This document shows positions 2,191 to 39,679 of a DNA stretch of 40,382 nt, piece by piece (position 1 is the stretch's first letter; every line of letters begins with the position of its first letter). Origin of the DNA: Bacillus sp. 491mf (lineage in GTDB: Bacteria > Bacillota > Bacilli > Bacillales > Bacillaceae_G); the NCBI RefSeq assembly GCF_900112415.1, contig NZ_FOLV01000035.1, positions 1-40,382 on the forward strand, given 5' to 3'. The position numbers and the translations under genes are program-made. The notes under the pieces are model-generated. The model made no database searches, was not told the DNA's origin, and saw only the letters and a program-made list of their open reading frames with translations.

Positions 2191-2206
2191 TATGCAATAT
2201 TGCATT
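2191..2206 (+). promoter_or_regulatory. PlcR box upstream of the PapR-like gene (one mismatch)
   Basis: TATGCAATATTGCATT matches the PlcR operator TATGNANNNNTNCATA except for the last base. It lies 60 bases before the ATG at 2266, in the place where papR has its own PlcR box. A possible -10 (TATATT) is at 2229-2234. Confidence 0.7.
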
Positions 2207-2265
2207 TTATCCAAATATTTCTTCATGCTATATTAATAGAGAACCTGTGGGGGGGGGAAGAGTGT

Positions 2266-2406
2266 ATGCAAAAACTTTTTAAGGGGAGTTTAGTGGCATT
2301 AGCGATGGTAACGTGTATGTCTCTAGTACGTAACGAAGTCGCAAAGAATCCCGAAGAAGAAACTGAAGAAGTGGATTTAATGTCTATCTTGCCTTTTGAG
2401 TATTAA
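2266..2406 (+). CDS. PapR-like quorum-sensing signal peptide precursor (orphan, C-terminus LPFEY)
   Basis: The 46-residue precursor begins MQKLFKGSLVALAMVTCMSL and ends LMSILPFEY. PapR of B. cereus, as I recall it, begins MKKLLIGSLLTLAMAWGISL and ends in LPFEF-type pentapeptides; start, signal sequence, acidic middle and terminal PFE motif all correspond. PapR is exported, cut by NprB and re-imported by Opp, and then activates PlcR. Here no plcR gene is adjacent: an MFS gene precedes it and an mccF-like gene converges on it. A start 87 bases upstream would place the PlcR box inside the gene, so the ATG at 2266 is preferred. Its ribosome site is a 9-G tract at 2249-2257. The final Tyr differs from the pherotypes I remember. 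Confidence 0.75.
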   Translation: MQKLFKGSLVALAMVTCMSLVRNEVAKNPEEETEEVDLMSILPFEY

Positions 2407-2408
2407 TA

Positions 2409-2452
2409 AAAAAGAAACAATCGCTTATAACAAAAGTGATTGTTTCTTTTTT
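2409..2452. terminator. Bidirectional terminator between the PapR-like gene and mccF
   Basis: AAAGAAACAATC (2411-2422) pairs perfectly with GATTGTTTCTTT (2438-2449); A-rich on the left and T-rich on the right, so it can serve both the PapR-like gene and the convergent gene ending at 2528. Confidence 0.8.
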
Positions 2453-2527
2453 ATTGATTATATATATCTGAGATAATTGAATATGAATTTATTATGAAAA
2501 AGCCTCATTAATCCACGTTTAGCGTAA

Positions 2528-3526
2528 TTAACGTATCCACTCTTCAAGGATCATTACGGTTTTATTTGTTGCATCCATCTCTATTTTCATACCAAGTGGA
2601 ACGGTTAACATCGGGTGTGTATGGCAACAATCAAAGTCCGCAATAAAGGGTATGTTAATGCCGTCCAAAACTTCTAATAAAATCTCATATGGTTTTTTGT
2701 TTGTACCACTATCATGAAATTGCTCATGTTTTCCAAGAATCAAACCAGAAATTTTATGAAATACGCCATTGAGTTTTAGTAATGAAAAACTTCTTTCAAT
2801 AGTAGCAGCATCTTTTGTCGTATCCTCGATAAAAAGGATATCTCCGCCTTTTATTTCTGGCATATACTCGCTGCCCCAAATGCCAGTTAAAGTATCTAAA
2901 TTTCCTCCAATTAACCTTCCTGTTGCTTTTCCGCTATTTACACAAATCCAATCATTCTTTATACGTTGTTTTTCCTTCGTTTTTTCTTCCCAATTGATAA
3001 ACTCATCCGTCCAATACGGCGGCTTTTTAATCGCATATGGTAATGTTTGTTTCTCTTCTAACATGTCACTAAAATATTCGTATGTAAAGTGAACAAATGG
3101 TTCAAACTCACCAAATGAAGGGATTAATGCAGGGCCATAAAATGTATGGATTCCAGTTTTGGCGTATATCCCAAGTAAGATTGCAGTAACATCGGAATAA
3201 CCGATCATGATTTTCGGTTTTTTTATAAAAGCTTCATAATCAATATAAGGCAATATTGAATTAGAATTCATCCCACCAATGGTTGACATGATACATTTGA
3301 TGTTAGGGTTTCGTATTAACTCGTTCAGTTCTTCTGCCCGTTCTTTAATGCTTCCAGAGCGATAGTTGTCATGTTTTCCAGTTAAATTTCCTTCTATTAT
3401 TTTGAACCCCTTGTTCTCTAGGAATTTTTTTGCCCGCTCAAATCTTTTCGGTGCAGTATAAGTTGCGGGTGATGAAGGGGAGTAAATCCCAATTAAATCT
3501 CCTTTTTGTAATCTGCTAAGTTTCAT
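2528..3526 (-). CDS. S66-family serine peptidase (LD-carboxypeptidase / MccF-like)
   Basis: The 332-residue protein belongs to peptidase family S66, cytoplasmic Ser-Glu-His enzymes that include murein LD-carboxypeptidase and MccF, which cleaves the toxic aminoacyl nucleotide of microcin C7. The nucleophile elbow is GYSDVTAILLGIY (Ser near residue 110), the Glu lies in DILFIEDTTKDAA, and the His in DCCHTHPMLTVPLG near the C-terminus. The extra loop and HTHP segment resemble MccF rather than the shorter LdcA. The start is ATG with GGGGAGAGA upstream. It is a single gene, with no biosynthetic cluster nearby, so a self-immunity role is not indicated. Confidence 0.85.
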   Translation of the reverse strand: MKLSRLQKGDLIGIYSPSSPATYTAPKRFERAKKFLENKGFKIIEGNLTGKHDNYRSGSIKERAEELNELIRNPNIKCIMSTIGGMNSNSILPYIDYEAFIKKPKIMIGYSDVTAILLGIYAKTGIHTFYGPALIPSFGEFEPFVHFTYEYFSDMLEEKQTLPYAIKKPPYWTDEFINWEEKTKEKQRIKNDWICVNSGKATGRLIGGNLDTLTGIWGSEYMPEIKGGDILFIEDTTKDAATIERSFSLLKLNGVFHKISGLILGKHEQFHDSGTNKKPYEILLEVLDGINIPFIADFDCCHTHPMLTVPLGMKIEMDATNKTVMILEEWIR

Positions 3527-23615: not shown

Positions 23616-25997
23616 TTGAAAAAGAACAGAAAATTAAAAACTTTTTCAGTGTTGGCAACAGGGGCAATGTTAAGTTCTATGTTTGCTTTCGGTGGTCATG
23701 CTGCTTATGCAGAGTCATCACTGGCGCCATCTAGTTTCATAGATGAGCATTTAATACCGGAGGATCGCTTGGCAAATGCGTTGAAACAACGCGGGGTTAT
23801 TGATTCTTCTGCATCACAAGCAGAAACGTCAAAGGCTGTAGAAAAATACATAGAGAAGAAGAATGGCGAAAATCCTGGAAAGGAAACAACGCCAGAAGAC
23901 AGCCTTACACAAGAAGCTACTGACTTTATGAAAAAAGTAAAAGATGAAAAGATGAAAGAAAAAGCGCAGCAAGTAGAGAATGGTCCAGCAAATGGAGAAG
24001 CATCTGGATTTACTGCTGGAAAATTGAATGGGAAAGTTCCGACATCTCCAGCGAAGCAGGCTGAATATAATGGGGCAGTTCGCAAAGATAAAGTTCTTGT
24101 GCTACTTGTAGAATATAGTGATTTTAAACATAATAATGTCGATCAAGATCCAGGATATATGTATGCGAATGATTTTAATCGTGAGCATTATCAAAACATG
24201 TTATTTGGTGATAAGCCGTTTACATTATTCAATGGCACGAACATTAAAACATTCAAGCAATATTATGAAGAGCAATCAGGCGGCAGTTATACAGTCGACG
24301 GTACTGTAACAGAGTGGTTGAGTGTTCCAGGTAAAGCGGCAGATTACGGCGCTGATGCTGGTACTGGTCATGATAATAAAGGACCATTAGGACCACGTGA
24401 TTTAGTAAAAGACGCATTAAAAGCAGCGGTGGAAAAAGGTATTAATTTAGCTGATTATGACCAATTTGATCAATACGATTACAACGGCAATGGTAATAAA
24501 AATGAACCAGATGGAATTATCGATCATTTAATGGTTGTTCACGCTGGTGTTGGACAAGAAGCTGGCGGTGGAAAATTGAAAGATGATGCAATTTGGTCTC
24601 ATCGTTCAAAACTTGGGGCAAAGCCTTATGCAATCGATGGAACGAAATCATCTGTTCCAAACTGGGGCGGAAAGATGGCTGCGTATGATTACACAATCGA
24701 GCCTGAAGACGGTGCAGTTGGTGTATTTGCGCATGAATTTGGTCATGATTTAGGTTTACCGGATGAGTACGATACAAAGTATTCTGGACAAGGTGAGCCG
24801 ATTGAAGCTTGGTCTATTATGAGCGGCGGTAGCTGGGCTGGAAGAGTTGCTGGAACAGAACCGACAAGTTTCTCTCCGCAAAATAAAGAATTCTTCCAAA
24901 AGAATATGAAGGGTAATTGGGCGAATATTGTTCAGGTAGACTACGATAAACTTCGTGGTGTTGGATCGGCAACGTATTTAGATCAAAGTGTTACGAAGTC
25001 AAATCGCCCAGGAATTATTCGTGTGAATTTACCTGATAAAGAATTGAAAAATATTGAACCTGGTTTTGGAAAGAAATTTTATTATAGTACAAAAGGAAAT
25101 GACATCCATACAACATTAGAGACACCATTATTTGATTTAACAAATGCAACGAATGCGAAATTTGATTACAAAGCATTCTATGAATTAGAAGCAAAGTATG
25201 ATTTCCTAGATGTATATGCGATTGCAGAAGATGGAACGAAAACAAAGATTGATAGAATGGGTGACAAAGACATCAAGAATGGTGTGGACACAACGAACGA
25301 TAAATGGATTGATAAATCTTATGATTTAAGTCAATTCAAAGGTAAAAAAGTAAAACTACAATTTGACTATTTAACAGATATTGCTGTAGCATACAGAGGA
25401 TTTGCGCTTGATAATGCGACTTTAACAGTAGATGGTAAAGTTGTGTTCTCTGATGATGCAGAGGGACAACCAAGCTTTACGTTAAAAGGCTTTACGGCTT
25501 CTAATGGATTGGAATATAAGAAAAATAACTACTATTTAGAGTGGAGAAACTACGCTGGTTCTGATGAAGCACTGCAATATGGACGCGGTCCAGTTTACAA
25601 TACAGGACTTGTTGTATGGTATGCAGACCAAAGCTTTACAGATAACTGGGTTGGTGTACATCCAGGCGAAGGATTCCTTGGAGTAGTAGATTCTCATCCA
25701 GAAGCGATTGTAGGATCATTAAATGGTCAGCCATCTGTGAAAAGTAGCACGCGTTATCAAATTGCAGATGCTGCGTTCTCATTTGATCAAACACCGGCGT
25801 GGAAAGTAAATTCACCGTCACGCGGCGTATTTGATTATAAAGGGTTACCAGGTGTGGCTAAATTCGATGACTCTAAAGTATATATAAACAAGTTAATTCC
25901 AGATGCAGGACGCAAACTTCCAAACCTTGGCCTGAAATTTGAAGTAGTAGGTCAAGCTGATGATAAGTCTGCAGGAGCAGTTTGGATTCATCGTTAA
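23616..25997 (+). CDS. Immune inhibitor A family metalloprotease (InhA)
   Basis: The 793-residue secreted zinc protease has a signal peptide ending near AYA-ES (residue 32), a propeptide, and a thermolysin/M6-type site [14 protein letters not shown] (373-386) with SIMSGGSW downstream. [13 protein letters not shown] and the C-terminal [10 protein letters not shown] and [13 protein letters not shown] are hallmark InhA strings. InhA proteins cleave antibacterial peptides, host proteins and NprA. InhA1 has HEYGH, InhA2 HEFGH; this protein mixes features of both and cannot be assigned to either. The start is TTG with GGAGGAGGG. It has its own spacer without PlcR box and lies between yhaM and yhaL, which are adjacent in B. 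subtilis. Confidence 0.9.
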
Positions 25998-26023
25998 GTA
26001 AAATAAAAGAGTCATAAAACCTT

Positions 26024-26073
26024 CCTTCCTTTCATACAGTAAAACTAACCAAGCTTGTCTGATGAAAGGAAGG
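26024..26073 (+). promoter_or_regulatory. Hairpin burying the yhaL ribosome-binding site
   Basis: CCTTCCTTTCAT (26024-26035) is a perfect 12-base complement of ATGAAAGGAAGG (26062-26073), which contains the yhaL Shine-Dalgarno sequence 8 bases before its ATG. A 26-base loop separates the arms. The structure would block translation of yhaL unless opened; it could also act as an attenuator, although no T run follows. Confidence 0.6.
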
Positions 26074-26080
26074 AACTTTA

Positions 26081-26281
26081 ATGGAAAATTTACCATGGTG
26101 GATTTATCTCATTATTGTTGGAATTGTTGTGAGCGGTTATATGGTCTTATTTACGTCGAAACAAGAACAAGAAATTGATAATGAGTTTATTGAAAAAGAA
26201 GGCGAAGTCTATATGAAACGCCTCGCTGAAGAACGGGAACGACGCCATCAAGATAAGGATAAGGATTCCGTTTTGCTTTAA
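26081..26281 (+). CDS. yhaL: Sporulation protein YhaL
   Basis: The 66-residue protein has one N-terminal membrane helix (PWWIYLIIVGIVVSGYMVLF, residues 5-24) and a charged helical tail (NEFIEKEGEVYMKRLAEERE). B. subtilis YhaL has the same PWWVYL start and tail, and lies between yhaM and prsA; it is known as a sporulation protein. Here it is separated from yhaM by the inhA-family gene. The initiation region is in a 12-bp hairpin. A terminator follows 8 bases after the stop. Confidence 0.85.
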   Translation: MENLPWWIYLIIVGIVVSGYMVLFTSKQEQEIDNEFIEKEGEVYMKRLAEERERRHQDKDKDSVLL

Positions 26282-26288
26282 TAGTATG

Positions 26289-26327
26289 AAAAGAGGATGC
26301 GTAGCCGAATGGTTACCATCCTTTTTG
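26289..26327 (+). terminator. Terminator after yhaL
   Basis: AAAAGAGGATG and CATCCTTTTTG form the stem, followed by TTGT. Confidence 0.65.
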
Positions 26328-26396
26328 TTGTGGGGTTTTGAAATGATTAAGACCAAATATTTAAAGTGTAATTCAAACGAAATATCTGGTAGTTCA

Positions 26397-26822
26397 TTAA
26401 CGTTTTGAATCTTTAGTAACATTAGGTCTTGAGATTCTTTTCCCGTCTTTATAGTCAAGACAAGAAACCTCAATCATCAACCCATTAAATACTGTAAAGT
26501 AGAAGCCATAACTACTCCCTCTCATCATATAAGGTTCTTTATCTATTTCAATACCTCCATCGATTAAGCGGTTATATACTTGATCAACCTCATTAGGTTC
26601 TTCTACTAAGAAACCAATATGAAACGCCTCTGGATATTGCGCATCTTTACCATCTTTAAACGCTTTTGGATCACTTAATACGAGAATGAATCCATCATTA
26701 TCACTCATTACTACAAGAGCTTTTCCTTTCGCTTCTAAAAATTGAAAATCAAAAAATGTTTCAAAGAAATTTCTCGCTGCCGCTAAATCATTTACACATA
26801 AATTTAAGTGATTTAGTTTCAT
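26397..26822 (-). CDS. VOC-family (glyoxalase/bleomycin-resistance fold) protein
   Basis: The 141-residue protein has the paired beta-alpha-beta-beta-beta units of the vicinal oxygen chelate fold: KLNHLNLCVNDLAAARNFFE at the N-terminus with His5 as likely metal ligand, AFHIGFLVEEPNEV in the middle with another His, and GLMIEVSCLDYKD with Glu near residue 118. Substrate is unknown; relatives include glyoxalases and fosfomycin or bleomycin resistance proteins. AAAGGAGATG precedes the ATG. The mirror-strand frame shows no protein features. Confidence 0.8.
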   Translation of the reverse strand: MKLNHLNLCVNDLAAARNFFETFFDFQFLEAKGKALVVMSDNDGFILVLSDPKAFKDGKDAQYPEAFHIGFLVEEPNEVDQVYNRLIDGGIEIDKEPYMMRGSSYGFYFTVFNGLMIEVSCLDYKDGKRISRPNVTKDSKR

Positions 26823-26973
26823 ATACTCATCTCCTTTTCATCATATTTATATTTCAGGGATTTTCTCCTTTAGAACAGTTTCATGTGTAAGCTAAAGAAT
26901 GCCATACTTCAAGAAGGAAGTATGGATACTATCATTTCGCGGATTTTGTACGTTAAGGTGAGGGGATACCATA

Positions 26974-27050
26974 CATGCCTATCAACTAGAGAAAATGCAC
27001 TGTCTCCAAATGTAAAAAAATGAACAATAATTTGTAAAAAAGTTTGATCA
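26974..27050 (+). mobile_element. Solo IS231 end
   Basis: CATGCCTATCAACTAGAGAA followed by AATGCACTGTCTCCAAATG and AAAAAAATGAACAATAATTTG. This resembles the IS231 terminal repeat CATGCCCATCAACTTAAGAA plus adjoining subterminal DNA as I remember them. No transposase follows; satA begins 135 bases later, so it is a decayed end. GAGGGGATACCATA just outside fits a G-rich IS231 target. Confidence 0.45.
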
Positions 27051-27184
27051 AAAGTATTGTGTAGGTATGTAGGGTTCTTATGTTTAACATACGGGCCAAA
27101 TTGTTAAATGAAATCAAATCCATGTCCCTGTTGAACATTGTTGATGAACGGTATTTGAAATCAGATAATGAGGAGAATGAGAAA

Positions 27185-27730
27185 ATGGGCGTAACGATTA
27201 AAAAATTTACAGAAGAAGACCTGAATTGTTCTGTCATCATCAATGATCGATTCACAGTAGATTCGATTCTTTTGTTAACGGCAACGGGGCATTCCATCCA
27301 GTATACGGTGAAGAAAGTTCGTCCCTATGAAAAACAGTATTCAGATGATCCAGATGATCTACTTTGCTTGCAAGAATACATTGATCATCCAGATCAGGCG
27401 CTATTCTTGGCAATTGAAGGAAATGATATTGTCGGCCTGGTCATAGTAAGACGAAACTGGAATGAGTTTGCTTACATTGAAGACATCAAAGTAGCCCAAA
27501 AATATCGGCGACATGGTATCGGCCGCCTACTTATGGATAAGGTCAAAGATTGGGCTCAAGACAACCGAATGGCTGGTATGATGTTAGAGACACAAAATAA
27601 CAATGTGGGTGCATGTAAGTTTTATGAACGCTATGGTTTCTTTATTGGTGGCTTTGACAAATATGTCTACAAAGGTATCAATCAGCTGAGTGACGAAATA
27701 GCGATATACTGGTATTTTATATTTGAGTAG
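27185..27730 (+). CDS. satA: Streptothricin N-acetyltransferase, SatA/YyaR type
   Basis: The 181-residue GNAT enzyme has CSVIINDRFTVDSILLL near its N-terminus and the acetyl-CoA loop VAQKYRRHGIGRLLMDKVK (about 104-122), then LETQNNNVGACKFYERYGF. These strings match SatA of B. subtilis (YyaR) and B. anthracis, which acetylate streptothricin and confer resistance. The upstream ATG at 27080 adds 35 codons of non-family sequence; GAGGAG before 27185 fixes the start. The IS231 remnant upstream may point to transfer, although satA is common in the group. Confidence 0.88.
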   Translation: MGVTIKKFTEEDLNCSVIINDRFTVDSILLLTATGHSIQYTVKKVRPYEKQYSDDPDDLLCLQEYIDHPDQALFLAIEGNDIVGLVIVRRNWNEFAYIEDIKVAQKYRRHGIGRLLMDKVKDWAQDNRMAGMMLETQNNNVGACKFYERYGFFIGGFDKYVYKGINQLSDEIAIYWYFIFE

Positions 27731-27793
27731 ACCTCTACAATAAGCTCATTACTTTTATAAAACCAGAATTGATTATTTGTAATAAATTAAAAA

Positions 27794-28723
27794 TTATATG
27801 GCTCTTTTATCAAAATTTGAAACTGGTAATTCCAGTAAGTCGCTTTGATCATATAAGTTTAGTAAGTGTTTTTCTATTCCCATACAAATTTCTTCTAATG
27901 GAAGGTCATTTGAATCTTGACCAAATGGATCTTCAATTTCAACTCCTATTGCTTCAATTCCTAAAAATGCAAAACTAATAAACATCGTTGCCATAATCGT
28001 AAACCATCCCATACTATCAACCAGCCCAATTGATAAAGTCCCACAAAAAATGATAAGTAAACTTTTAATATGTGCAAAGTATGCAAAGGGAATGGGTGTT
28101 GCTTTAATGCGATCACAGCCGCCTATAGAATTTAACAGATTATCCAATTCATCTTCCATATTCATTAAGGTATTTGGAGGAAGTTGCCCGGATTTCAATC
28201 CCTTTGTTATGACAGCTTTTAACATGAAAATTATGGTAAGAGGTAAATAGTTGGATCTCACCAACATTTCCTTATCTTTATCCGAACATAGTTCTAATAG
28301 ATCTTTTATTTCGGATAGATCTTTTTCATCTCTCAAATGTTGTTTAGCTAGTTTTGGAAAAGCAATTAATAAATGTAGAAACTTTAATTTTTCTTTATCC
28401 ATAGTATTTCCTTTAGAATCCCAGTAACATAAAAAGCTTACTGCTAAATTTCTAGTCGAATTACCGACTCCTCCAAATAGTTTTCTTCCTTCCCAATATC
28501 GATCATATGCAGTATTTGTTCGAAATACTAATAATAAACCTAAAGCTCCCCCTACAATAACCCACGGAGTCGAATTTATATGTATTCCAAAGTAGTAGTT
28601 AATAAGAACAATACAAATAGAAATACATGTATAAACAATGATCTGTTTAAAGATGTTTTTTATAATTGTTCCCTTTAACGTAAAGATTTGTTTTAAACTT
28701 TCTTGATTGTCGTAACGAATCAT
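27794..28723 (-). CDS. Bestrophin-like (UPF0187/YneE) ion channel protein
   Basis: The 309-residue membrane protein shows bestrophin hallmarks: WVIVGGALGLLLVFRTNTAYDRYWEGRK (about 51-78, with the RxNxAYDRWWE-type string), KATPIPFAYFAHIKSLL (about 215-231), and the cytoplasmic FLGIEAIGVEIEDPFGQDSNDLPLE (about 256-280). Bacterial bestrophins form pentameric channels, sodium-permeable in the one studied from Klebsiella. AAAGAGG precedes the ATG at 28723; a TTG 13 codons upstream has no RBS. Confidence 0.88.
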   Translation of the reverse strand: MIRYDNQESLKQIFTLKGTIIKNIFKQIIVYTCISICIVLINYYFGIHINSTPWVIVGGALGLLLVFRTNTAYDRYWEGRKLFGGVGNSTRNLAVSFLCYWDSKGNTMDKEKLKFLHLLIAFPKLAKQHLRDEKDLSEIKDLLELCSDKDKEMLVRSNYLPLTIIFMLKAVITKGLKSGQLPPNTLMNMEDELDNLLNSIGGCDRIKATPIPFAYFAHIKSLLIIFCGTLSIGLVDSMGWFTIMATMFISFAFLGIEAIGVEIEDPFGQDSNDLPLEEICMGIEKHLLNLYDQSDLLELPVSNFDKRAI

Positions 28724-28762
28724 ATGTGAATAAACCTCTTTTCTTCTATAAGCTGTTTGCAA

Positions 28763-29399
28763 TTGTGCGATAGTGTTAATGTCTCTATCATAACTGTGAA
28801 CCTAACAGACTTAATATATGTATTTATTAGATGGAGTTACATGGATAAAACATGGAAATTATATTCTAATACATTTCCCGGAAGAACAATGCTAACTTTC
28901 TTACGCAAATCAATAGATTAATATTTTTATCATAGCTAGAGTCTTATTGTCAATCACCATTTTTATATACTAAGAGAAATGGATTTAACTGTATTGTTGA
29001 CCTCATGAAAGAGTGGGTTATATGAGTTTGAAATTATTCTATGATAGCAATCGTTATGGTTAGCTCGGGGATATCAACACAAATTCTGTTAACCAAACAC
29101 AACAACAATATGAAGCTTCCCAGTATAATGGTTACGGAAGATGTACAATTGCAGGGATGATTGGTAGTTTATCTGTCATTAGTTAGTATCTTATGAAATG
29201 ACCAGCAAGCAGGCGTCTACAAAAATGAAGATGGTGCTATGATTTGGAATTTGCTTAGCAGGAAATTCGAGTGGATTCACATAAAAGATGTCGATTTTTT
29301 TCATAGCACAAATGATTCCATAAACAGGTCATATATGATAAAATAATAGAAACGTATGTTCTATTTCTTATTTACATATGTTAAACATTTTAGAAAGAG
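28763..29399 (+). other. Gene-poor decayed stretch with two open-frame remnants
   Basis: Between the bestrophin and the VOC gene there is no intact gene. ATG at 29022 reads MSLKLFYDSNRYG, an in-frame TAG, then LGDINTNSVNQTQQQYEASQ and YNGYGRCTIAGMIGSLSVIS to a stop at 29184-29186. A second open stretch, in another frame, reads QQAGVYKNEDGAMIWNLLSR and ends SYMIK at about 29346. They may derive from one broken gene. I do not recognise the parent. Confidence 0.4.
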
Positions 29400-29408
29400 G
29401 TGCTTGTG

Positions 29409-29837
29409 ATGATTTTAGGTATTAATCCGTATGTAGTGACAAATGGTAATGGGCAAGAGGCTATTAAGTTTTATGAACATGCATTGGATGCAAAAGTTGT
29501 AAGTCTTCAAACGTTTGGAGACATGCCTGAAAACCCGGAATTCAAAGTTCCCGCTGAGGCGAAAGACCTTGTGTTACATGCTCATTTAAAAGTGGGTGAT
29601 ACGAATCTAATGATCTCTGATACATTTCCAGGTCAGCCATACCAAATTGGATCGCAAGTGACTATCGCTATTCACATACAAAATGCAGACAAATCAAAAG
29701 AAGTGTTTGAAAAGTTACAAGATGGTGGTCAAGTCGTGATGCCGCTTCAAGAAACGTTCTGGAGCCCATTATATGGCCAAGTCAAAGACAAATTCGGCGT
29801 AGAGTGGCAAGTTTCAACGGAAGGCGCTAATATGTAA
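29409..29837 (+). CDS. PhnB-like VOC family protein
   Basis: The 142-residue protein begins MILGINPYVVTNGNGQEAIK and continues FYEHALDAKVVSLQTFGDMP, typical of PhnB/YjdN-like VOC proteins (3-demethylubiquinone methyltransferase-like in name only). It ends FGVEWQVSTEG with the Glu/Trp of the last strand. No reaction is established for these. AGAAAGAGGTG precedes the ATG at 29409; a GTG three codons upstream would overlap this RBS. Confidence 0.8.
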   Translation: MILGINPYVVTNGNGQEAIKFYEHALDAKVVSLQTFGDMPENPEFKVPAEAKDLVLHAHLKVGDTNLMISDTFPGQPYQIGSQVTIAIHIQNADKSKEVFEKLQDGGQVVMPLQETFWSPLYGQVKDKFGVEWQVSTEGANM

Positions 29838-29846
29838 GTCATTGTA

Positions 29847-29875
29847 CGGGACTGATGATCAGTCCCGTTTTTTGT
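29847..29875 (+). terminator. Terminator after the PhnB-like gene
   Basis: ACGGGACTG and CAGTCCCGT form a perfect 9-bp stem followed by TTTTT. Confidence 0.85.
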
Positions 29876-29880
29876 GTCCA

Positions 29881-29951
29881 CCGATATCGGCGCCTTTCGC
29901 AATATATCGGCGCTTCGACACGATTTAAAGATTCTTCAACGTTATTCGACG
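29881..29951 (+). repeat. Dispersed CGGCGCTTCGA repeat, copy 5
   Basis: CCGATATCGGCGCCTTTCGC, AATATATCGGCGCTTCGACA, CGATTTAAAGATTCTTCAAC, GTTATTCGACG. It begins 6 bases after the terminator at 29875. Confidence 0.75.
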
Positions 29952-30052
29952 CATGAATCATGGAACCCATTTGGAATGAAGGTCCCATCTTTTCTTTTTC
30001 CTTAATTTGTGTACTATAAGAAGTAGAAAGATATAAAAAAGGGGACTTTCGA

Positions 30053-30613
30053 ATGGAATTTCATGAACAAAAAATATTACCAGCGGTTCGGCAAATTAAA
30101 GATTTAGAGAAGCTATTACATAGCTCCTATGAATATATCGTTATTCTTGATATTCATGTCGGTCAGTTGAAAAGTGTTGTGGCATTAGCGAAGCAGTATT
30201 GTAAAAAGGTCTTTTTGCATGTGGATTTAATTCATGGTTTGCAAAGTGATGCGTATGCGACGGAATATGTATGCCAAGAGTTTCGTCCGTACGGGGTGTT
30301 ATCTACGAGGTCTAGTGTGATTATAAAAGCGAAGCAAAAAGGCGTTGTGGCGATTCAACGCGTTTTCTTAATTGATTCTAGTGCAATGGAAAAGAGTTGT
30401 GCTCTTTTAGAAAAGACACAGCCCGATTATATTGAGGTGCTTCCAGGTGCTTTAACAGGCGTAATTGCGGAAGTGAAGGAGCGGACTGGATTATCTATTT
30501 TAGCAGGCGGATTTATTCGCACTGTGGATGATGTGGAAAGGGCTCTGGCAGCTGGTGCAACGGCGATTACAACGTCGAAGAAAGAATTATGGAAACATTT
30601 TCATGAAAAGTGA
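30053..30613 (+). CDS. glpP: GlpP, glycerol-3-phosphate-responsive antiterminator
   Basis: The 186-residue TIM-barrel protein binds glycerol-3-phosphate and then glp leader mRNA, preventing termination ahead of glpFK and glpD. KKVFLHVDLIHGLQSD (about 50-65), FLIDSSAMEKS (about 105-115), DYIEVLPGALTGVI (about 124-137) and LAGGFIRTVDDVERAL (about 150-165) are family strings; B. subtilis GlpP is 192 residues. GGGGAC precedes the ATG. Two target leaders lie downstream at 30700 and 33208. Confidence 0.92.
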   Translation: MEFHEQKILPAVRQIKDLEKLLHSSYEYIVILDIHVGQLKSVVALAKQYCKKVFLHVDLIHGLQSDAYATEYVCQEFRPYGVLSTRSSVIIKAKQKGVVAIQRVFLIDSSAMEKSCALLEKTQPDYIEVLPGALTGVIAEVKERTGLSILAGGFIRTVDDVERALAAGATAITTSKKELWKHFHEK

Positions 30614-30633
30614 CAAAAATATGAAAAAACCAA

Positions 30634-30662
30634 TTGACAACGCTTTCAAATGAGTTTAACAT
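30634..30662 (+). promoter_or_regulatory. glpFK promoter with overlapping CcpA site (cre)
   Basis: TTGACA (30634-30639), 17-base spacer, TAACAT (30657-30662). TGACAACGCTTTCA (30635-30648) matches the cre consensus TGNAARCGNWWNCA at 13 of 14 positions and overlaps the -35, so glucose repression by CcpA is expected. Confidence 0.65.
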
Positions 30663-30699
30663 TATAAATAAGTTAATAAACGTGACGGAGAAAAGTAGA

Positions 30700-30757
30700 G
30701 ATCCACATTTCATTGCTTCTATGATTCTATAGAAGCGTGCATTTGTGGGTTTTTTTC
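30700..30757 (+). promoter_or_regulatory. GlpP-controlled leader terminator before glpF
   Basis: ATCCACA pairs with TGTGGGT around an inner perfect stem GCTTCTAT/ATAGAAGC, followed by TTTTTTT. It lies between the promoter and glpF and resembles the leader before glpD, as expected for GlpP antitermination targets. Confidence 0.75.
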
Positions 30758-30795
30758 ATTTGGAAATGAATGGACATTCAATTTGTCTCTTTCAC

Positions 30796-30809
30796 TGAAA
30801 GCGTTTTAA
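30796..30809 (+). promoter_or_regulatory. Second cre-like site between leader terminator and glpF
   Basis: TGAAAGCGTTTTAA matches TGNAARCGNWWNCA except at one position. It lies 21 bases before the glpF start, where a bound CcpA would act as a roadblock. Confidence 0.45.
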
Positions 30810-30829
30810 TTTGATTATGGAGGGGTTAT

Positions 30830-33155
<2,326 letters not shown>

Positions 33156-33168
33156 GTATAAACAGTGT

Positions 33169-33266
33169 TATAATGTTGATAAGTTAATATTTCGGTAGGA
33201 GATTTGGAGAGACCACAGCACGCTATAGAAGCAATTCTATGGTGATGTTTGTGGTCTCTTTTTTTC
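33169..33266 (+). promoter_or_regulatory. glpD promoter and GlpP-controlled leader terminator
   Basis: TGTTATAAT (33166-33174) is an extended -10. The leader then folds: AGAGACCACA (33208-33217) pairs with TGTGGTCTCT (33250-33259), with an inner CTATAGAA/TTCTAT stem, followed by TTTTTT. Same design as the glpF leader. Confidence 0.75.
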
Positions 33267-33288
33267 GTAATGAAAGGGAGGAATTACT

Positions 33289-34971
33289 ATGAAATTCTCA
33301 AGTAACGGGCGTCAAAATGTTTTAAATGAAGTAAATAAACAAGAAGTAGATGTGGTTGTCATTGGCGGTGGGATCACAGGAGCGGGTATTGCGCTAGACG
33401 GAGCAAAACGCGGATTATCAACAGTTGTGTTTGAAATGCAAGACTTTGCAGCAGGTACATCAAGTCGTTCTACAAAGCTTGTTCACGGCGGTTTACGTTA
33501 TTTAAAACAGTTTGAAGTGAAAATGGTAGCTGAAGTTGGGAAGGAACGTGCCATTGTATATGAAAACGGTCCTCACGTAACAACGCCAGAGTGGATGCTG
33601 CTACCGTTCCATACAGGCGGTACGTTCGGTGCATTTAGTACATCAATTGGACTTCGCGTATACGACTTTTTAGCAGGCGTTAAGAAAAGCGAGCGCAGAA
33701 AAATGTTTAGCCGCGAAGAAACGATGAAGAGAGAGCCGCTTGTGAAACAAGAAGGGTTAAAAGGCGGCGGTTACTACGTAGAATATCGTACAGATGACGC
33801 GCGTTTAACAATTGAAGTCATGAAAGAAGCGATCAAACATGGTGCAAAAGCAGTCAACTATGCGAAAGTAGACGGCTTCTTATATAAAGATGGAAAAGTA
33901 TGCGGCGTTCGTGTAGTCGACTTATTAGACGGAAACGTATATGAAGTGTACGGTAAAAAGATCGTCAACGCGTCAGGCCCTTGGGTCGATACACTTCGTG
34001 AAAAAGATAATTCGAAAAAAGGAAAAGTCTTGCAGTTATCAAAAGGTGTGCACCTTGTCATCGATCAAAAGCGTTTCCCACTAGGGCAAGCAATTTACTT
34101 TGATACGCCAGACGGACGGATGGTATTTGCGATTCCGCGCGGAGGTAAAACATACGTAGGCACAACAGATACATTCTATGATAAAGATGCAGCAGTACCA
34201 AAAATGACAACAGAAGATCGCACATACATTATTAACGCGATTAACTACATGTTCCCGAGCGTAAAAATTACAGAGAAGGACATTGAATCAAGCTGGGCCG
34301 GCGTTCGTCCATTAATTTATGAAGAAGGAAAGAGCGCATCTGAAATTTCTCGTAAAGATGAAATTTGGACTTCTGAATCTGGTCTAATTACAATTGCTGG
34401 CGGAAAATTAACAGGATACCGCAAAATGGCAGAGATGGTCCTAGATTATGTCACATCGTTAATGCAAAAAGAAGGTCAAGGTTCATATCCAAAAAGTACA
34501 ACGAAACATATGCCAATCTCTGGCGGTCATGTTGGCGGTTCGAAAAACTTCCCAACATTTATTGCGAAAAAAGCACAAGAAGGGAAAAAATACGGTTTAA
34601 CAGTAGAACAAGCAGAGCAGTTCGCAAAATTCTACGGTTCAAACGTCGATGTACTCTTCGAATTAGCGAAAGAGTATAAAGGAGATGCAGAGCGTCATAA
34701 CATGCCGCTTGACGTCATTCTTCCACTCGTATACGCAATGGAGTTCGAAATGACAACAAAACCAGTCGACTTCTTTGTACGCCGCACAGGAGCAGTATTC
34801 TTCAACATTCACTGGGTATATCAATGGAAAGACGCTGTGATCAACTACATGGTAGAGGCCTTAAACTGGAGCGGAGAAGAGAAGCGGAAGTATACAGCTG
34901 AATTAGACGCAGCATTAACAGATGCAGTTGTACCAGTCGATCAACAAGATCAGGCATCTGCGCTGGCATAA
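33289..34971 (+). CDS. glpD: Aerobic glycerol-3-phosphate dehydrogenase
   Basis: The 560-residue membrane-associated FAD enzyme oxidises glycerol-3-phosphate to dihydroxyacetone phosphate and feeds electrons to menaquinone. The dinucleotide fold VDVVVIGGGITGAGIALDGA (about 19-38) and GTSSRSTKLVHGGLRYLKQF (about 55-74) are the two family signatures; AGVRPL and SGLITIAGGKLTGYRKMAE lie in the C-terminal half. Length matches B. subtilis GlpD (555). GGGAGG precedes the ATG. Confidence 0.95.
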   Translation: MKFSSNGRQNVLNEVNKQEVDVVVIGGGITGAGIALDGAKRGLSTVVFEMQDFAAGTSSRSTKLVHGGLRYLKQFEVKMVAEVGKERAIVYENGPHVTTPEWMLLPFHTGGTFGAFSTSIGLRVYDFLAGVKKSERRKMFSREETMKREPLVKQEGLKGGGYYVEYRTDDARLTIEVMKEAIKHGAKAVNYAKVDGFLYKDGKVCGVRVVDLLDGNVYEVYGKKIVNASGPWVDTLREKDNSKKGKVLQLSKGVHLVIDQKRFPLGQAIYFDTPDGRMVFAIPRGGKTYVGTTDTFYDKDAAVPKMTTEDRTYIINAINYMFPSVKITEKDIESSWAGVRPLIYEEGKSASEISRKDEIWTSESGLITIAGGKLTGYRKMAEMVLDYVTSLMQKEGQGSYPKSTTKHMPISGGHVGGSKNFPTFIAKKAQEGKKYGLTVEQAEQFAKFYGSNVDVLFELAKEYKGDAERHNMPLDVILPLVYAMEFEMTTKPVDFFVRRTGAVFFNIHWVYQWKDAVINYMVEALNWSGEEKRKYTAELDAALTDAVVPVDQQDQASALA

Positions 34972-34976
34972 AAATG

Positions 34977-35022
34977 AAAACCACACTGTTTCTAAAAGTT
35001 TAGAGATGGTGTGGTTTTGTTT
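34977..35022 (+). terminator. Terminator after glpD
   Basis: AAAACCACAC and GTGTGGTTTT form a 10-bp stem with TCTAAA/TTTAGA inside it; T-rich tail follows. Confidence 0.8.
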
Positions 35023-35105
35023 TGAAAAGATTTTTAAATAAAAACGAAATAAGTCGTTTAATATTCTGGAATTAAAAAGCTTTAAATGTTAATAGGGGTA
35101 CCGTC

Positions 35106-35233
35106 CATGTCCATTAACTTAAGAAATTAATTGTTTCCCAAAACAAAAAAATGAGCCGAATTCTCATAAATAACTGTGAAAAGGTGAATTTTTCGTTATG
35201 GGAGGTTTCTCAAATGTTAGCTTGATGGGTATG
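35106..35233. mobile_element. IS231-derived mini-element (MIC231/MITE-like)
   Basis: CATGTCCATTAACTTAAGAA at 35106 and its inverted partner GTTAGCTTGATGGGTATG ending at 35233 match the IS231 terminal repeat (CATGCCCATCAACTTAAGAA as recalled) with a few changes each, 128 bases apart and with no transposase. Outside are GGGGTACCGTC and GAACGATCCCC, in keeping with the G/C-flanked IS231 target. An aborted ATG-TTA-GCT-TGA lies at the right end. It may be a non-autonomous cassette or an internally deleted IS231. Confidence 0.5.
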
Positions 35234-35360
35234 GAACGATCCCCCTAAGAGCATTCTTTTTGAGAAGAAAATAGAATTTTAATGATTTGCTGAAGATGTG
35301 AGTTTAAAAAAGTTTTGGTATAATGTGGATATAAATATTTAGATAGATGGGAATGAATTG

Positions 35361-35666
35361 ATGGAAGGAAAATTATTGGTAAAATATATTTTTTACTTTT
35401 TTTCTTATTTACTTGTTTATATACCCTCATTTCCAGTTATAGTTGTTCTTGGTTTAGCTGGTGCTTCTCCAGATGTAGAACATACTGTACTGGAATGGAT
35501 AATTGCTATTTTTGAGATTTTAGTTACAATGTTGGGAGCTTGGGTTTTTAACTTTATTTTCAAGAGTATTATAGGAATAAAGAAGAACACAAAAATCACT
35601 TGGACTATCTGTATTCTTCATTTAATTCTAATCCCTTTGACATGGAGACTTCTTCTTTATTTTTAA
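35361..35666 (+). CDS. Hypothetical small membrane protein, 101 residues
   Basis: The product has three hydrophobic segments (about 6-30, 40-64 and 78-100) with little charge and a short basic loop IGIKKNTKITW. GATGGGAATG precedes the ATG; a TTG one codon upstream is less likely. I do not recognise a family. Single gene with a promoter-like TATAAT at about 35320. Confidence 0.55.
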   Translation: MEGKLLVKYIFYFFSYLLVYIPSFPVIVVLGLAGASPDVEHTVLEWIIAIFEILVTMLGAWVFNFIFKSIIGIKKNTKITWTICILHLILIPLTWRLLLYF

Positions 35667-36340
35667 ATTATTCATTTATAACTCTGTATTTAATCAATCC
35701 TTTTTTCAAAGTAACATAAAGAGGAAGATAATGTACTTAATAAATTTTATAATTTAAATAAAGAAAAGAATCCCTTTAAATGATCTAAAAGACTTCTTTT
35801 TTTGTATATTTGATATAATCAATATTGATAACTAACTTGTCAAAACAGAAATTTCACTTCACCTATAGTATCAGCCCCACCTACGCTAGATACCTTGATA
35901 GCCACACTTGCCATCCAACCCATTATCATTATAATAGAAAGCGCTTACAAAGTAAATGATTTCCTCTTAGAAAACATTATTTTTCTATGCAATTAAACTT
36001 TGTTTTAAACAGTACAACTTTCTTTCAAAATCACAATTAGCGGTTTTATGTGTAATTGCAGCGTTATTTGCATTTATATGGGTGAAGCAAAATGAGCATA
36101 CTTTTCAGATGTTAGAAGAGTAGCTGTTTTGCCTTTTTTATTTGTTCTTATTCAACTAAAACACAGGAATCTTTTTTCATTGTATTTTTTGTTTTGATTT
36201 TGTCCTTTGGTTTTCCATTGTTTTTTGTTTGGAGTGTTGGCTCGTCGTGTGGGGGTGAGACCCCACGGTTTGAAAAGTAGCGATATAGCGGATAAGAGAA
36301 AGTCTGGGACGAATGATCTGGCGGTACTTCTAATAGAAGA
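35667..36340. other. Gene-poor AT-rich stretch
   Basis: No intact gene. AGAAAGCGCTTACA (35936-35949) matches the cre consensus at 13 of 14 positions but no start follows. A frame without a start codon, closed by TAG at 36121-36123, reads QLAVLCVIAALFAFIWVKQN, perhaps the tail of a broken small membrane gene. GTGGGGGTGAGACCCCAC (36249-36266) is a hairpin. Confidence 0.4.
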
Positions 36341-36376
36341 TTAATTAATATATGCAATTTTGCATATATTAATTAA
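36341..36376. promoter_or_regulatory. PlcR box inside a 36-bp perfect palindrome
   Basis: TATGCAATTTTGCATA at 36351-36366 is a perfect PlcR operator. It is extended on both sides by TTAATTAATA and TATTAATTAA, so the whole has 17-bp inverted arms around TT. A likely -10 (TAAAAT) is at 36404-36409, 37 bases after the box. It should drive the Kunitz-like gene and plc. Confidence 0.9.
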
Positions 36377-36459
36377 TGTATCTACAAACTCAACATTAGA
36401 TGTTAAAATTACGTTTGCCGATGGTAGGATCAATTGTGAAAATAAGGAGGAATTAAGAC

Positions 36460-37227
36460 ATGTTTATGAAAAGAAAACTCCCAATACTTACACTCTTAGC
36501 ATTAATATTTAGTTTGATAGTTACTGTTTTTCCGACAAATACTGCTTTTGCAGATGAGGAAGATCGTATACTTGATATTTATGGTGATCCAGTTACCACA
36601 AATAAAGACTATATGTTAGTAAATAAGTATTGGGACGTGGTGGGGGTTCATCCTTCAGAACGTATAGCAGCTGTAGGTCAGAACAAATTTGGATTATCTT
36701 ATGAGAAGTACGCTGGTTGGCATTATGCAATTCAGTATAGACAAGCATCTTATTATGGATCAGCAGAAATGCATAAAGATACAAAAGGTAATCAGTACTA
36801 TGGTACACCTATAAATTTTGAAACTCCAGATGGATTAAACAGTGATGGATATGTAAGACATAATACGCCAGTTACAATGTCAATGTGGATTGGTGGGCCA
36901 AACGCTGATGCCGGAGGAACAAAAAAATATATAAATGCCAAGGATGCTGGATGGATTTATTTTAGCGACCAATCAAAAAGCAAGCTAATCGTTCAGAAAA
37001 GAAATTCGAAGGAAATAGACTTAGCAACAGGCACTACCGAGATTCTTAGGGATAAATTTGGTAGACCTTGTGATTGGTATAGTGCAGATCCAAAGAACTC
37101 TTATTATGGGGTTACATCAACTTTCCAAGTACAGATCGCACAATATTTAGGCTCAGATCATCAGAAAATGTGGGCAATTTCTGCTCCTAAAAGTGTTGCT
37201 GGCTACGAATTAGTACCTTTGCAGTGA
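36460..37227 (+). CDS. Secreted Kunitz(STI)-type beta-trefoil-like protein, PlcR-controlled
   Basis: The 255-residue precursor has a signal peptide (MFMKRKLPIL plus hydrophobic core, cleavage after AFA, residue 31). The mature start ILDIYGDPVTTNKDYML (37-53) fits the soybean trypsin inhibitor (Kunitz) signature [LIVM]-x-D-x-[EDNTY]-[DG]-[RKHDENQ]-x-[LIVM]-x(5)-Y-x-[LIVM] at each position. GTPINFETPDG (115-125) then DGYVRHNTPVTMSMW (129-143) resemble the next two strands of that fold. Only one Cys (204) is present, so the plant disulfides are missing. AGGAGG is 9 bases before the ATG. plc begins 28 bases later in what is probably one transcript. It might inhibit proteases, bind sugars or be a toxin component; unknown. 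Confidence 0.65.
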   Translation: MFMKRKLPILTLLALIFSLIVTVFPTNTAFADEEDRILDIYGDPVTTNKDYMLVNKYWDVVGVHPSERIAAVGQNKFGLSYEKYAGWHYAIQYRQASYYGSAEMHKDTKGNQYYGTPINFETPDGLNSDGYVRHNTPVTMSMWIGGPNADAGGTKKYINAKDAGWIYFSDQSKSKLIVQKRNSKEIDLATGTTEILRDKFGRPCDWYSADPKNSYYGVTSTFQVQIAQYLGSDHQKMWAISAPKSVAGYELVPLQ

Positions 37228-37255
37228 AACTATATATTAAATGGAGGAATGTAGT

Positions 37256-38110
37256 ATGAAAAGAAAAATTTTAGCTATAGCTTCTGTAATTGCTTTAACA
37301 GCTCCTATTCAAAGTGTGGCGTTCGCACATGAAGATGACGGGCAAGTTGAGCCACCTATCGCTCAAAAATGGTCAGCAGAATCGATACATAGTGAAGGAG
37401 TAAGTTCTCATTTATGGATTGTAAACAGAGCCATTGATATTATGTCCCAAAATGAAACTGTTGTGAAGAAAAATGAGACAGCTCTATTAAATGAGTGGCG
37501 TACTGATCTAGAGAAAGGTATTTACAATGCGGATTATAAAAACCCATACTATGATAATTCCACATTCGCTTCACACTTTTATGATCCTGATTCAGGAAAG
37601 ACGTATATTCCATTTGCTAAACAAGCAAAACAAACAGGAGCGAAATATTTTAAACTAGCTGGTGAAGCTTATCAAAATAAAGATATGCAAAATGCATTCT
37701 ATTATTTAGGATTATCACTTCATTATTTAGGGGATGTTAACCAACCAATGCATGCTGCAAACTTTACTAACATTTCGCATCCATTTGGCTTCCACTCAAA
37801 ATATGAAAACTTCGTCGATACAGTGAAGGATAATTATAGAGTAACGGATGGAAATGGTTATTGGAACTGGAAAAGTGCAAATCCAGAAGAGTGGGTTCAT
37901 GCTTCAGCAGCTGCAGCAAAAGCTGATTATCCATCAATTGTTAATGGTAGTACGAAAAATTGGTTCCTAAAAGCAGCTGTATCACAAGACTCTGCTGATA
38001 AATGGCGTGCGGCAGTAACACCGGTAACAGGAAAACGTTTAATAGAAGCACAGCGTATTACAGCTGGATATATTCATTTATGGTTTGATACGTACGTAAA
38101 TCATCAATAA
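37256..38110 (+). CDS. plc: Phosphatidylcholine-specific phospholipase C
   Basis: The 284-residue precursor has a signal peptide (ending AFA-HE near residue 24), a short propeptide, and a mature enzyme starting at Trp39 (WSAESIHSEG), the N-terminal zinc ligand. Other ligands are in SHLWIVNRAID, the ASHFYDPDSG His, LHYLGDVNQPMHAANF and GFHSKYENFVD, the full trinuclear zinc site of B. cereus PC-PLC (283 residues). It hydrolyses phosphatidylcholine to diacylglycerol and phosphocholine and lyses membranes. GGAGG before ATG 37256 fixes the start. In B. cereus the sphingomyelinase gene sph follows plc; here it does not. Identity to the classical enzyme appears only moderate. Confidence 0.93.
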   Translation: MKRKILAIASVIALTAPIQSVAFAHEDDGQVEPPIAQKWSAESIHSEGVSSHLWIVNRAIDIMSQNETVVKKNETALLNEWRTDLEKGIYNADYKNPYYDNSTFASHFYDPDSGKTYIPFAKQAKQTGAKYFKLAGEAYQNKDMQNAFYYLGLSLHYLGDVNQPMHAANFTNISHPFGFHSKYENFVDTVKDNYRVTDGNGYWNWKSANPEEWVHASAAAAKADYPSIVNGSTKNWFLKAAVSQDSADKWRAAVTPVTGKRLIEAQRITAGYIHLWFDTYVNHQ

Positions 38111-38139
38111 TAACTGCACTTACTTATGTCATAAAGTAA

Positions 38140-38278
38140 AATGGAAACGACTATTGGGTTCATGTTTCATCATATGGAGATAAAATCCAGACTATGCCCC
38201 ACCAATGCATGTGTCTCGGCTGAATCCCAATTATATGTTGGAGAAACATCACATCCATTAATTTGTAAATTGACATAA
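38140..38278 (+). pseudogene. Short broken reading frame after plc
   Basis: One frame reads NGNDYWVHVSSYGDKIQTMP and stops; the overlapping frame continues PTNACVSAESQLYVGETSHP and ends LICKLT at 38278. Joined by a frameshift they look like the C-terminus of a secreted protein. I do not recognise it; it does not resemble sphingomyelinase. Confidence 0.3.
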
Positions 38279-38297
38279 ATAACAATGATAAAATAAG

Positions 38298-38336
38298 AAA
38301 AAACGTTGCATCAATTGATTGCAACGTTTTTTCTTA
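38298..38336 (+). terminator. Terminator downstream of plc
   Basis: AAAACGTTGCA and TGCAACGTTTT form a perfect 11-bp stem followed by TTC, about 190 bases past the plc stop. Confidence 0.75.
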
Positions 38337-38455
38337 TTTTATTTACTTTGCACTTAATAGCCATTAAATCTGAATGATTTTAAGAAATTCATTGCCAAAT
38401 ATACGAGAAGAACAATTACTTATATAATGAAAACGAGAAAGGGGGAAATGGAAGC

Positions 38456-39277
38456 ATGCCAAAACATATCGTAGATCTATCAAAATACAATGATAATATC
38501 GATTGGGATATAGCGGCGCCGCAACTAGATTTGGCAATCTGTCGCGTTCAATATGGCTCAAGGAAGATAGACCAACTATACAATGAACACGTCCAAAATT
38601 TAGAAGCATATGGAGTTCCTCATGCGGCTTATGCTTACGGTTGTTATGTAAGCATTACAGATGCTATTGTGGAGGCCGAAGATTTTCTGGCACGTGTAAA
38701 CCCAAATGCGAAATTTCTTGTGTTAGATGTTGAAGAGGACACGCTAGCAAGCTGCGGAGCTACGAATCTAGCAGAAGCAGCACAAACATTTATTACTACT
38801 TGCAAAGATGTTGGTTGGAAAGTTGGCTTATATGTAGCACATCATATGTATGGATCTTATGGGTTACAAAATGTACAAGCTGATTTCTTATGGATTCCAC
38901 GATATGGAGGCAGAAAACCTAAATATGAATGCGATTTATGGCAATATGCAGATGGTGAAACAGGTGGATGGATTGATGGAATTGGAAAAGTAGATTTAAA
39001 TGTTTTAAACGGAGATAAGCCGCTCGAATGGTTCACAAATGTTCAGGAACTTTATCGCATCTTTGTAGGAGACTTCAATTCAGTTGAATGGATGGAAGAT
39101 GTATATCAGACAATCAAAGTTATTTTTCCAGACTACGGGATATGGACGCAATCTCTTGATGATGGAAATCAGCGTATCATTATTGGTGATTTCAACTCCA
39201 AAGCGTGGTGTGATGAAACGTTTGCGAAGTTGCAAGAAGCTTTCCCGTCATATGGTATGTGGGCCCGGCGAATTTAG
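38456..39277 (+). CDS. GH25 muramidase (lysozyme) with two C-terminal repeats
   Basis: The 273-residue protein has a GH25 catalytic domain (1-190): HIVDLSKYND with the catalytic-site Asp7, FLVLDVEEDT, GLYVAHHMYG and PRYGGRKPKYECDLWQYADG, close to endolysins of B. cereus phages such as PlyB-type enzymes. The C-terminus has two tandem units, ELYRIFVGDFNSVEWMEDVY...FPDYGIW (about 198-229) and QRIIIGDFNSKAWCDETFAK...FPSYGMW (about 237-270), SPOR-like and probably cell-wall binding. There is no signal peptide and no holin nearby, and no phage genes. Start ATG with AAAGGGGG. Confidence 0.85.
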   Translation: MPKHIVDLSKYNDNIDWDIAAPQLDLAICRVQYGSRKIDQLYNEHVQNLEAYGVPHAAYAYGCYVSITDAIVEAEDFLARVNPNAKFLVLDVEEDTLASCGATNLAEAAQTFITTCKDVGWKVGLYVAHHMYGSYGLQNVQADFLWIPRYGGRKPKYECDLWQYADGETGGWIDGIGKVDLNVLNGDKPLEWFTNVQELYRIFVGDFNSVEWMEDVYQTIKVIFPDYGIWTQSLDDGNQRIIIGDFNSKAWCDETFAKLQEAFPSYGMWARRI

Positions 39278-39357
39278 CTATTTACGTCCAAAGTTATTTT
39301 CAAAAATATGTTAATGTAATGTATAAATATTTATGAAAAAATTATACAAGAGGAAAA

Positions 39358-39398
39358 GGAGTCAGCCCCGCAGCTTAAAAGCTGTGAGGACTGACTCC
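39358..39398. other. GC-rich hairpin between muramidase and cytolysin operon
   Basis: GGAGTCAGCCCCGCAGCTTA and AAGCTGTGAGGACTGACTCC fold into a stem of about 17 pairs with two interruptions. On the minus strand it is followed by TTTTCC. It may act as a terminator; its GC content is unlike its surroundings. Confidence 0.5.
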
Positions 39399-39493
39399 AA
39401 AGTTCCTTCATATTATTATCTTTGTTATTGTTTGATAGTAAGTCTTTTTCAATTATATGATTAATATTGCAAAAAGAACCTGCTACATCCTCA

Positions 39494-39548
39494 TATGCAA
39501 CATTGCATATGAAGATGTATTGATAAAAACATAGGCGCTTACTATAAT
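39494..39548 (+). promoter_or_regulatory. PlcR box and -10 of the peptide-cytolysin operon
   Basis: TATGCAACATTGCATA (39494-39509) is a perfect PlcR operator; TATAAT at 39543-39548 is 33 bases behind it, the same geometry as at 36351. Confidence 0.92.
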
Positions 39549-39598
39549 AAGAGCATAAAGATAAATCACATCGTAGCAAAAAAAGAGGAGGAAATACT

Positions 39599-39679
39599 AT
39601 GACAATCGCAATGGCAATTTTAAAATTTTTAGGTGGAGTACTTCCATTCGTTCAAGAACTTTTAAAAGCATTTATGTAA
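39599..39679 (+). CDS. 26-residue amphipathic peptide, PlcR-controlled, upstream of the cytolysin
   Basis: MTIAMAILKFLGGVLPFVQE then LLKAFM. AGGAGG lies 8 bases before the ATG and the stop TAA is at 39677-39679. It is highly hydrophobic with Lys9, Glu20 and Lys23 on one side and no signal peptide, like phenol-soluble modulins, delta-lysin or leaderless bacteriocins. No terminator separates it from the cytolysin gene 68 bases later, so the two should share one PlcR-activated transcript. It could instead be a leader peptide or a type I toxin. I know of no named homologue. Confidence 0.7.
   Translation: MTIAMAILKFLGGVLPFVQELLKAFM

Follow-up and report, generated by a model that had tools for sequence, protein, structure and literature searches.

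Introduction

What does a PapR-like pheromone gene do when it stands behind a PlcR box with no receptor gene at its side? PlcR and PapR form a textbook circuit of one signal and one receptor. Within the window, by which we mean the whole stretch of 40,382 nucleotides from Bacillus sp. 491mf that was analysed, an initial annotation had proposed an orphan gene of this kind, with its own PlcR box and a C-terminus, LPFEY, that looked new. The proposed gene, PapR-like, solitary and preceded by a PlcR box, stood up to analysis through the core of that box, its match to PF05968, its terminator and tblastn searches of the window; the novelty of LPFEY did not, given the PapR of B. cereus ATCC 14579. 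Judged from its sequence, the locus is a one-gene unit that combines a PlcR-type box with a PapR-like precursor whose C-terminus is conserved in another species; searches of the window yielded no receptor gene. We regard it as well supported that a PapR-like gene stands alone here downstream of a PlcR box, and give an even chance to the reading that this gene, under PlcR control, supplies an additional pheromone to a receptor of the PlcR family, most likely PlcR, whose gene lies elsewhere.

The gene and its transcription unit

The papR-like open reading frame occupies 2266-2406 on the plus strand and encodes 46 residues (MQKLFKGSLVALAMVTCMSLVRNEVAKNPEEETEEVDLMSILPFEY). It was originally given as a feature at 2191..2406, which does contain the gene; position 2191, though, is the start of the box, and the gene starts at 2266. 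The unit comprises the following features:

2191..2206, no strand assigned: palindromic PlcR box TATGCAATATTGCATT, with its core at 2192-2205 and 59 bases from box to start codon
2226..2234, plus strand: possible extended -10 element TGCTATATT, read by eye, with no good -35 hexamer
2249..2257, plus strand: run of nine G in the leader, within or adjoining the ribosome-binding region
2266..2406, plus strand: papR-like gene, 46 aa, with a hydrophobic N-terminus, an acidic middle and the C-terminus SILPFEY (from translation, Pfam and hydropathy)
2383..2403, plus strand: codons of the presumed mature heptapeptide SILPFEY, by analogy with PapR7
2407..2453, plus strand: long terminator-like hairpin with a T-rich end, directly 3' of the stop codon

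The reading frame also opens at an ATG at 2179, ahead of the PlcR box, and the hydropathy of the 46-aa peptide peaks at 2.2 over 11 residues. The possible -10 element at 2226-2234 was absent from the output of a consensus promoter scan, and Rfam and tRNA scans of the window returned nothing of use. The 2400-2470 region folds at -27.6 kcal/mol versus a shuffled mean of -6.1 (z -9.7), and the gene appears to form a unit of its own, flanked by an MFS transporter (928-2058) and an LD-carboxypeptidase (2528-3526, on the strand opposite to the papR-like gene). The nine-G run is longer than every other homopolymer in the window, whatever the base; its length could vary through slippage, or it could be a sequencing soft spot, and it is missing upstream of the B. 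arachidis relative described below.

Resemblance to PapR and the C-terminus

The 46-residue PapR-like precursor of the initial annotation is borne out by Pfam PF05968, which matches the peptide from end to end (residues 1-46 on profile positions 1-48) with an E-value of 2.4e-5 and 25.0 bits; because this score falls just under the curated cut-off of 27 bits, we call the peptide PapR-like rather than PapR. NCBIfam profiles gave no match to it. When its C-terminal part (QEVQVAADLPFEF) was compared with PapR27 (EEVDLMSILPFEY) as printed in PMC4701985, 10 of 5000 shuffles scored equally well, and the B. arachidis peptide was equalled by 30 of 5000.

The peptide carries the PFE core with one of the known endings (LPFEF, LPFEY, MPFEF or LPFEH), here LPFEY. 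That this ending is new is ruled out by published sequences of PapR from B. cereus ATCC 14579, which ends in LPFEY: its PapR7 is given as KDLPFEY (PMC10017872) and its pentapeptide as LPFEY (PMC3009653), and LPFEY is one of the three PapR endings given in PMC7237779. SILPFEY differs from this PapR7 only in the two residues before LPFEY, SI for KD, and is identical to it at 5/7 positions, versus 3/7 with PapRa7. The forms of PapR7 seen in the cited articles (KD, AD and SD starts) have an acidic position 2, which is replaced by I in SILPFEY. The LPFEY pentapeptide is thus already known; the heptapeptide SILPFEY is without match in the literature searched, as are SILPYEY, ILPFEY and ILPYEY. In the literature searched for further copies of PapR, whether solitary or paralogous, no account of a solitary one was seen, and no solved structure containing the peptide was found.

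Set against PapR of the B. cereus group (PF05968, LPFEY class, KDLPFEY), the precursor is of similar length (46 aa versus 48) and shares the hydrophobic N-terminus, the EV...LPFE pattern at the C-terminus, the last five residues and a PlcR box. It differs in having SI for KD ahead of LPFEY, a box and terminator of its own, and its surroundings: papR lies directly downstream of plcR in the description of PMC10017872, whereas the papR-like gene adjoins the MFS transporter and the LD-carboxypeptidase. With PapRa (PapRa7 CSIPYEY; PMC3519770) it has in common a PapR-like signal for a PlcR-family receptor and the lack of an acidic position 2, and the PYEY of PapRa7 recurs in the B. arachidis relative. 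As that article describes it, PapRa has 93 aa with an internal heptapeptide and is encoded upstream of plcRa, and the targets of PlcRa showed no palindromic box; here, in contrast, the motif stands at the very end of 46 aa and no PlcR-like gene was found in the window. None of the marks of a PapRa (about 93 aa, internal heptapeptide, adjoining plcRa) is present in the papR-like gene.

That the product is a small secreted peptide of some other function, for example membrane-active, which merely resembles PapR, we consider very improbable. The PlcR regulon does include further small peptides, Sppc1-3 (PMC2464732), and the PF05968 score does lie below cut-off, but the peptide matches PapR from end to end and LPFEY is placed exactly at its C-terminus.

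PlcR boxes in the window

The box TATGCAATATTGCATT at 2191-2206 has one mismatch, a terminal T, to the older consensus TATGNAN4TNCATA. With up to one mismatch, this consensus has 7 matches in the window versus 2.81 expected, a count reached by 4/100 shuffles, and a match of this kind is weak evidence for a PlcR box. The 14-base core ATGCAATATTGCAT (2192-2205) fits exactly the target that was defined through mutagenesis, ATGhAwwwwTdCAT (PMC2464732), for which the window holds 2 exact sites versus 0.23 expected (3/100 shuffles reach 2). Nor does the mismatch count as a strong weakening of the box, since Table 1 of the same article gives 90% retained activity for a terminal T (PMC2464732). The one-mismatch box proposed for this gene is confirmed, its core being free of mismatches and the terminal T its single departure.

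Three mismatch-free sites to either pattern lie on the plus strand (the 2192-2205 core, 36351 and 39494), none of them within a kept open reading frame of at least 90 aa. The perfect site at 36351 is upstream of a 255-aa protein that begins with a signal-like stretch and matches no Pfam family, followed by a zinc-dependent phospholipase C gene (36351-38110). The perfect site at 39494 is upstream of a 26-aa frame, read by eye, and then of a thiol-activated cytolysin gene (39494-40382), which is cut by the window end at 40382; this arrangement brings to mind the small gene under PlcR regulation whose expression is coupled to that of cereolysin O (PMC1913518). The genes after both sites are content of PlcR-regulon type, and because the sites precede such genes the source organism probably has an active PlcR.

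Two further observations concern this end of the window. The start of the cytolysin and its promoter region have matches of 88% and 86%, respectively, on two different B. arachidis plasmids. Positions 35361-35672 have an 89% DNA match to CP079755.1, a record labelled Klebsiella grimontii, which is odd for an enterobacterium and perhaps reflects contamination or a mislabelled record.

A relative on a plasmid of Bacillus arachidis

A tblastn search of 72,556 plasmid records (E<=1) returned a single record, the plasmid NZ_CP127373.1 of B. arachidis YX15, a species whose type strain was included in a comparison of the B. cereus group and there clusters apart from the isolates (PMC11510535). The relative on this plasmid, QRY57_RS00165 (WP_286015142.1), is annotated as a hypothetical protein; its 46-aa open reading frame (MQKILLGNLVAFAILTGMSFEHNEIATNSKEEIEEVDLMSILPYEY) is 63% identical to the papR-like peptide, ends in EEVDLMSILPYEY and scores 16.8 bits against PF05968. 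The two peptides are identical at 12/13 of their last residues, with the common pattern EEVDLMSILP[FY]EY, and 1 of about 18 amino-acid-changing differences falls in the last 13 codons (P ~0.02). In this one pair of short genes with very few changes, dN/dS is 0.58 over the whole gene versus 0.11 in the last 13 codons. As a relative with a conserved C-terminus exists, the papR-like gene is not a one-off.

Like the window gene, the relative has no PlcR-like gene alongside. Unlike it, the relative is plasmid-borne, lies downstream of a Ricin-B/Toxin_10 gene and has no PlcR box in the 200 bases upstream, even with 3 mismatches, and hence a link to PlcR has been established for the gene in the window but not for its relative. 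The plasmid as a whole carries 11 perfect PlcR boxes versus 0 of a reversed control pattern, one of them 553 bases upstream of the Ricin/Toxin_10 gene, and a 49-kb part of it has 12 sites with at most one mismatch versus 4.49 expected, which 0/100 shuffles reach. The peptide gene is flanked by two genes annotated as recombinase family proteins, and a nearby 41-aa open reading frame matches DUF4158 weakly (24.2 bits, cut-off 27.4). DUF4158 is a domain of Tn3-type transposases.

This setting bears on two readings. One is that the papR-like gene is a relic left by duplication or transfer of papR, perhaps transcribed but with neither receptor nor effect. The place of the relative between recombinase family genes, near the weak DUF4158 match, would fit this, as would the overall dN/dS of 0.58, the nine-G run in the leader and the lack of a receptor in the window by tblastn; we nevertheless think it unlikely, given that frame, box and terminator are all intact and that 12/13 of the final residues are identical in another species. 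The other, which we hold to be slightly more doubtful still, is that PapR-like genes which stand alone act as mobile "signal-only" modules: on the mobilizable, box-rich B. arachidis plasmid the peptide would push or tune the host's PlcR and hence the plasmid's own PlcR-box cargo, and in the window the module would sit with its own box among chromosomal-looking genes.

Wider searches added little. A scan for PapR-type endings among open reading frames of 25-130 aa in the window and loci L001-L031 found four, namely the genes of the window and of L001, an L026 frame (DLPYQH) and an L002 frame ending in LPFGF, which is antisense to an annotated toprim gene and is probably spurious. The two-row peptide alignment gave 339 pattern matches and 0 confirmed ones against genome contigs and none against 397 genomes of the order; it does detect the B. 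arachidis plasmid, itself one of its two rows. PF05968 gave no match in sets of 2, 19 and 397 genomes, but neither did the controls, and the B. arachidis gene was missed, such that absence is not implied. Viral contigs (searched by DNA pattern and alignment) and phage records yielded no relative. The neighbouring MFS transporter has 15 matching loci in genome contigs, none labelled B. cereus group. By megablast against plasmids, window positions 1-25000 had no match, and 25001-40382 matched four records, none reaching 80% coverage.

Candidate receptors

The claim that no plcR lies beside the gene is upheld by tblastn of the window with three PlcR-like proteins from plasmids, which gave no match at E<=1; a PlcR elsewhere within the window is ruled out by this search alone. 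The B. arachidis plasmid, for its part, encodes a 292-aa PlcR-like regulator, P0003 (PlcR 2qfc, E 1.6e-28; RNPP_C, E 5.2e-29), chosen because, of the plasmid's 7 HTH_3 places, it alone lies in a PlcR-sized frame. It lies about 77 kb from the peptide gene by the shorter way round the circle and may be a candidate partner of that plasmid's peptide. No peptide-like open reading frame lies within about 700 bases downstream of P0003 on the same strand, and no PapR-type ending was found in the 22 kb around it among open reading frames of 25-130 aa. Relatives of P0003 occur in 51 plasmid records. Among seven PlcR-like plasmid loci examined, B. arachidis included, a peptide-like frame follows within about 700 bases on the same strand at two and at none of the other five, upstream sides being covered by the ending scan only.

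These two loci are worth recording in their own right. On a Priestia plasmid, a frame ending in ALMDLPYQH lies 56 bases after the PlcR-like gene (L026:3442-3564), and the two may make up a pair of PapR type in a genus beyond the B. cereus group; the frame has no PF05968 match at E<=0.1. On a Cytobacillus plasmid, the frame after the PlcR-like gene (L030:3363-3569) contains GYPTQH twice, like multi-copy pheromone precursors.

Could such a regulator, rather than PlcR, be the receptor? By the title of Huillet 2020, PapR is reportedly required for the activity of PlcRa, which would fit a PapR-type peptide acting on a paralogue. Of the residues that presumably contact the peptide in PlcR (K87, K89, K204, Y275, N159, N201, Y64 and Q237), the plasmid regulator keeps K87, K89, K204 and Y275 and has H for N159, T for N201, F for Y64 and E for Q237, which we count against this reading. 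Solitary receptors are known, namely PlcRb and PlcRc in ATCC 14579 (PMC3519770) and AloR18 (PMC7425212). The peptide might accordingly serve as ligand of another RNPP receptor, a PlcR paralogue with no adjoining peptide gene, either of the PlcRb/PlcRc type or of the B. arachidis plasmid type; PlcR would then drive expression only, and the gene would link two circuits. The ATCC 14579 paralogues BC1158 and BC2443 are described as having no associated peptide gene, and PapRa7, CSIPYEY, has no acidic residue at position 2 (PMC3519770). A paralogue stays in play because SILPFEY has likewise lost the acidic position 2 and the B. arachidis relative shares the PYEY ending of PapRa7, and the plasmid regulator's lack of a nearby peptide gene points the same way. 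SILPFEY is nonetheless closer to PapR7 of ATCC 14579 (5/7) than to PapRa7 (3/7), and overall we view a paralogue as possible though clearly the less probable receptor.

Proposed mechanism

In the reading that we prefer, an extra pheromone for a PlcR-family receptor, the PlcR box, a weak promoter, a ribosome site, the 46-aa propeptide and the terminator would together yield a PapR-type signal. As growth ends, active PlcR would switch on the gene; the propeptide would be exported and then cut to about SILPFEY, and the processed peptide would be re-imported through an oligopeptide permease to bind a receptor of the PlcR family, most likely PlcR, whose gene lies elsewhere. We favour PlcR because intracellular toxin levels rose in ATCC 14579 when the LPFEY pentapeptide was supplied, an effect that the authors attribute to activation of PlcR (PMC3009653), and because 5/7 residues equal PapR7. 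If the resident PlcR accepts LPFEY-type peptides, the gene would form a second arm of the positive loop; if not, the peptide may dampen the loop as a competitor. Non-cognate PapR7 was reported to lower haemolysis (PMC10017872), and an extra peptide therefore need not be neutral.

The full-length match to the PapR profile, the mismatch-free box core, the gene's own terminator and the conserved C-terminus all argue for this reading. Counted against it are the PF05968 scores, below cut-off here and lower still in the relative (16.8 bits), the replacement of the acidic position 2 by I, the lack of a box upstream of the B. arachidis copy and the overall dN/dS of 0.58. The PlcR regulon of ATCC 14579, as listed in PMC2464732, has PapR as its single signalling peptide, so the papR-like gene is not general to the B. 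cereus group.

Significance

For RRNPP_detector, the simplest system of this type is a propeptide gene next to its receptor gene (PMC10075063), and a signal-only gene could for that reason be missed in surveys of that kind. With a second pheromone gene under a PlcR box, cross-talk, competition between signals or the steering of a quorum circuit by plasmids would become directly testable.
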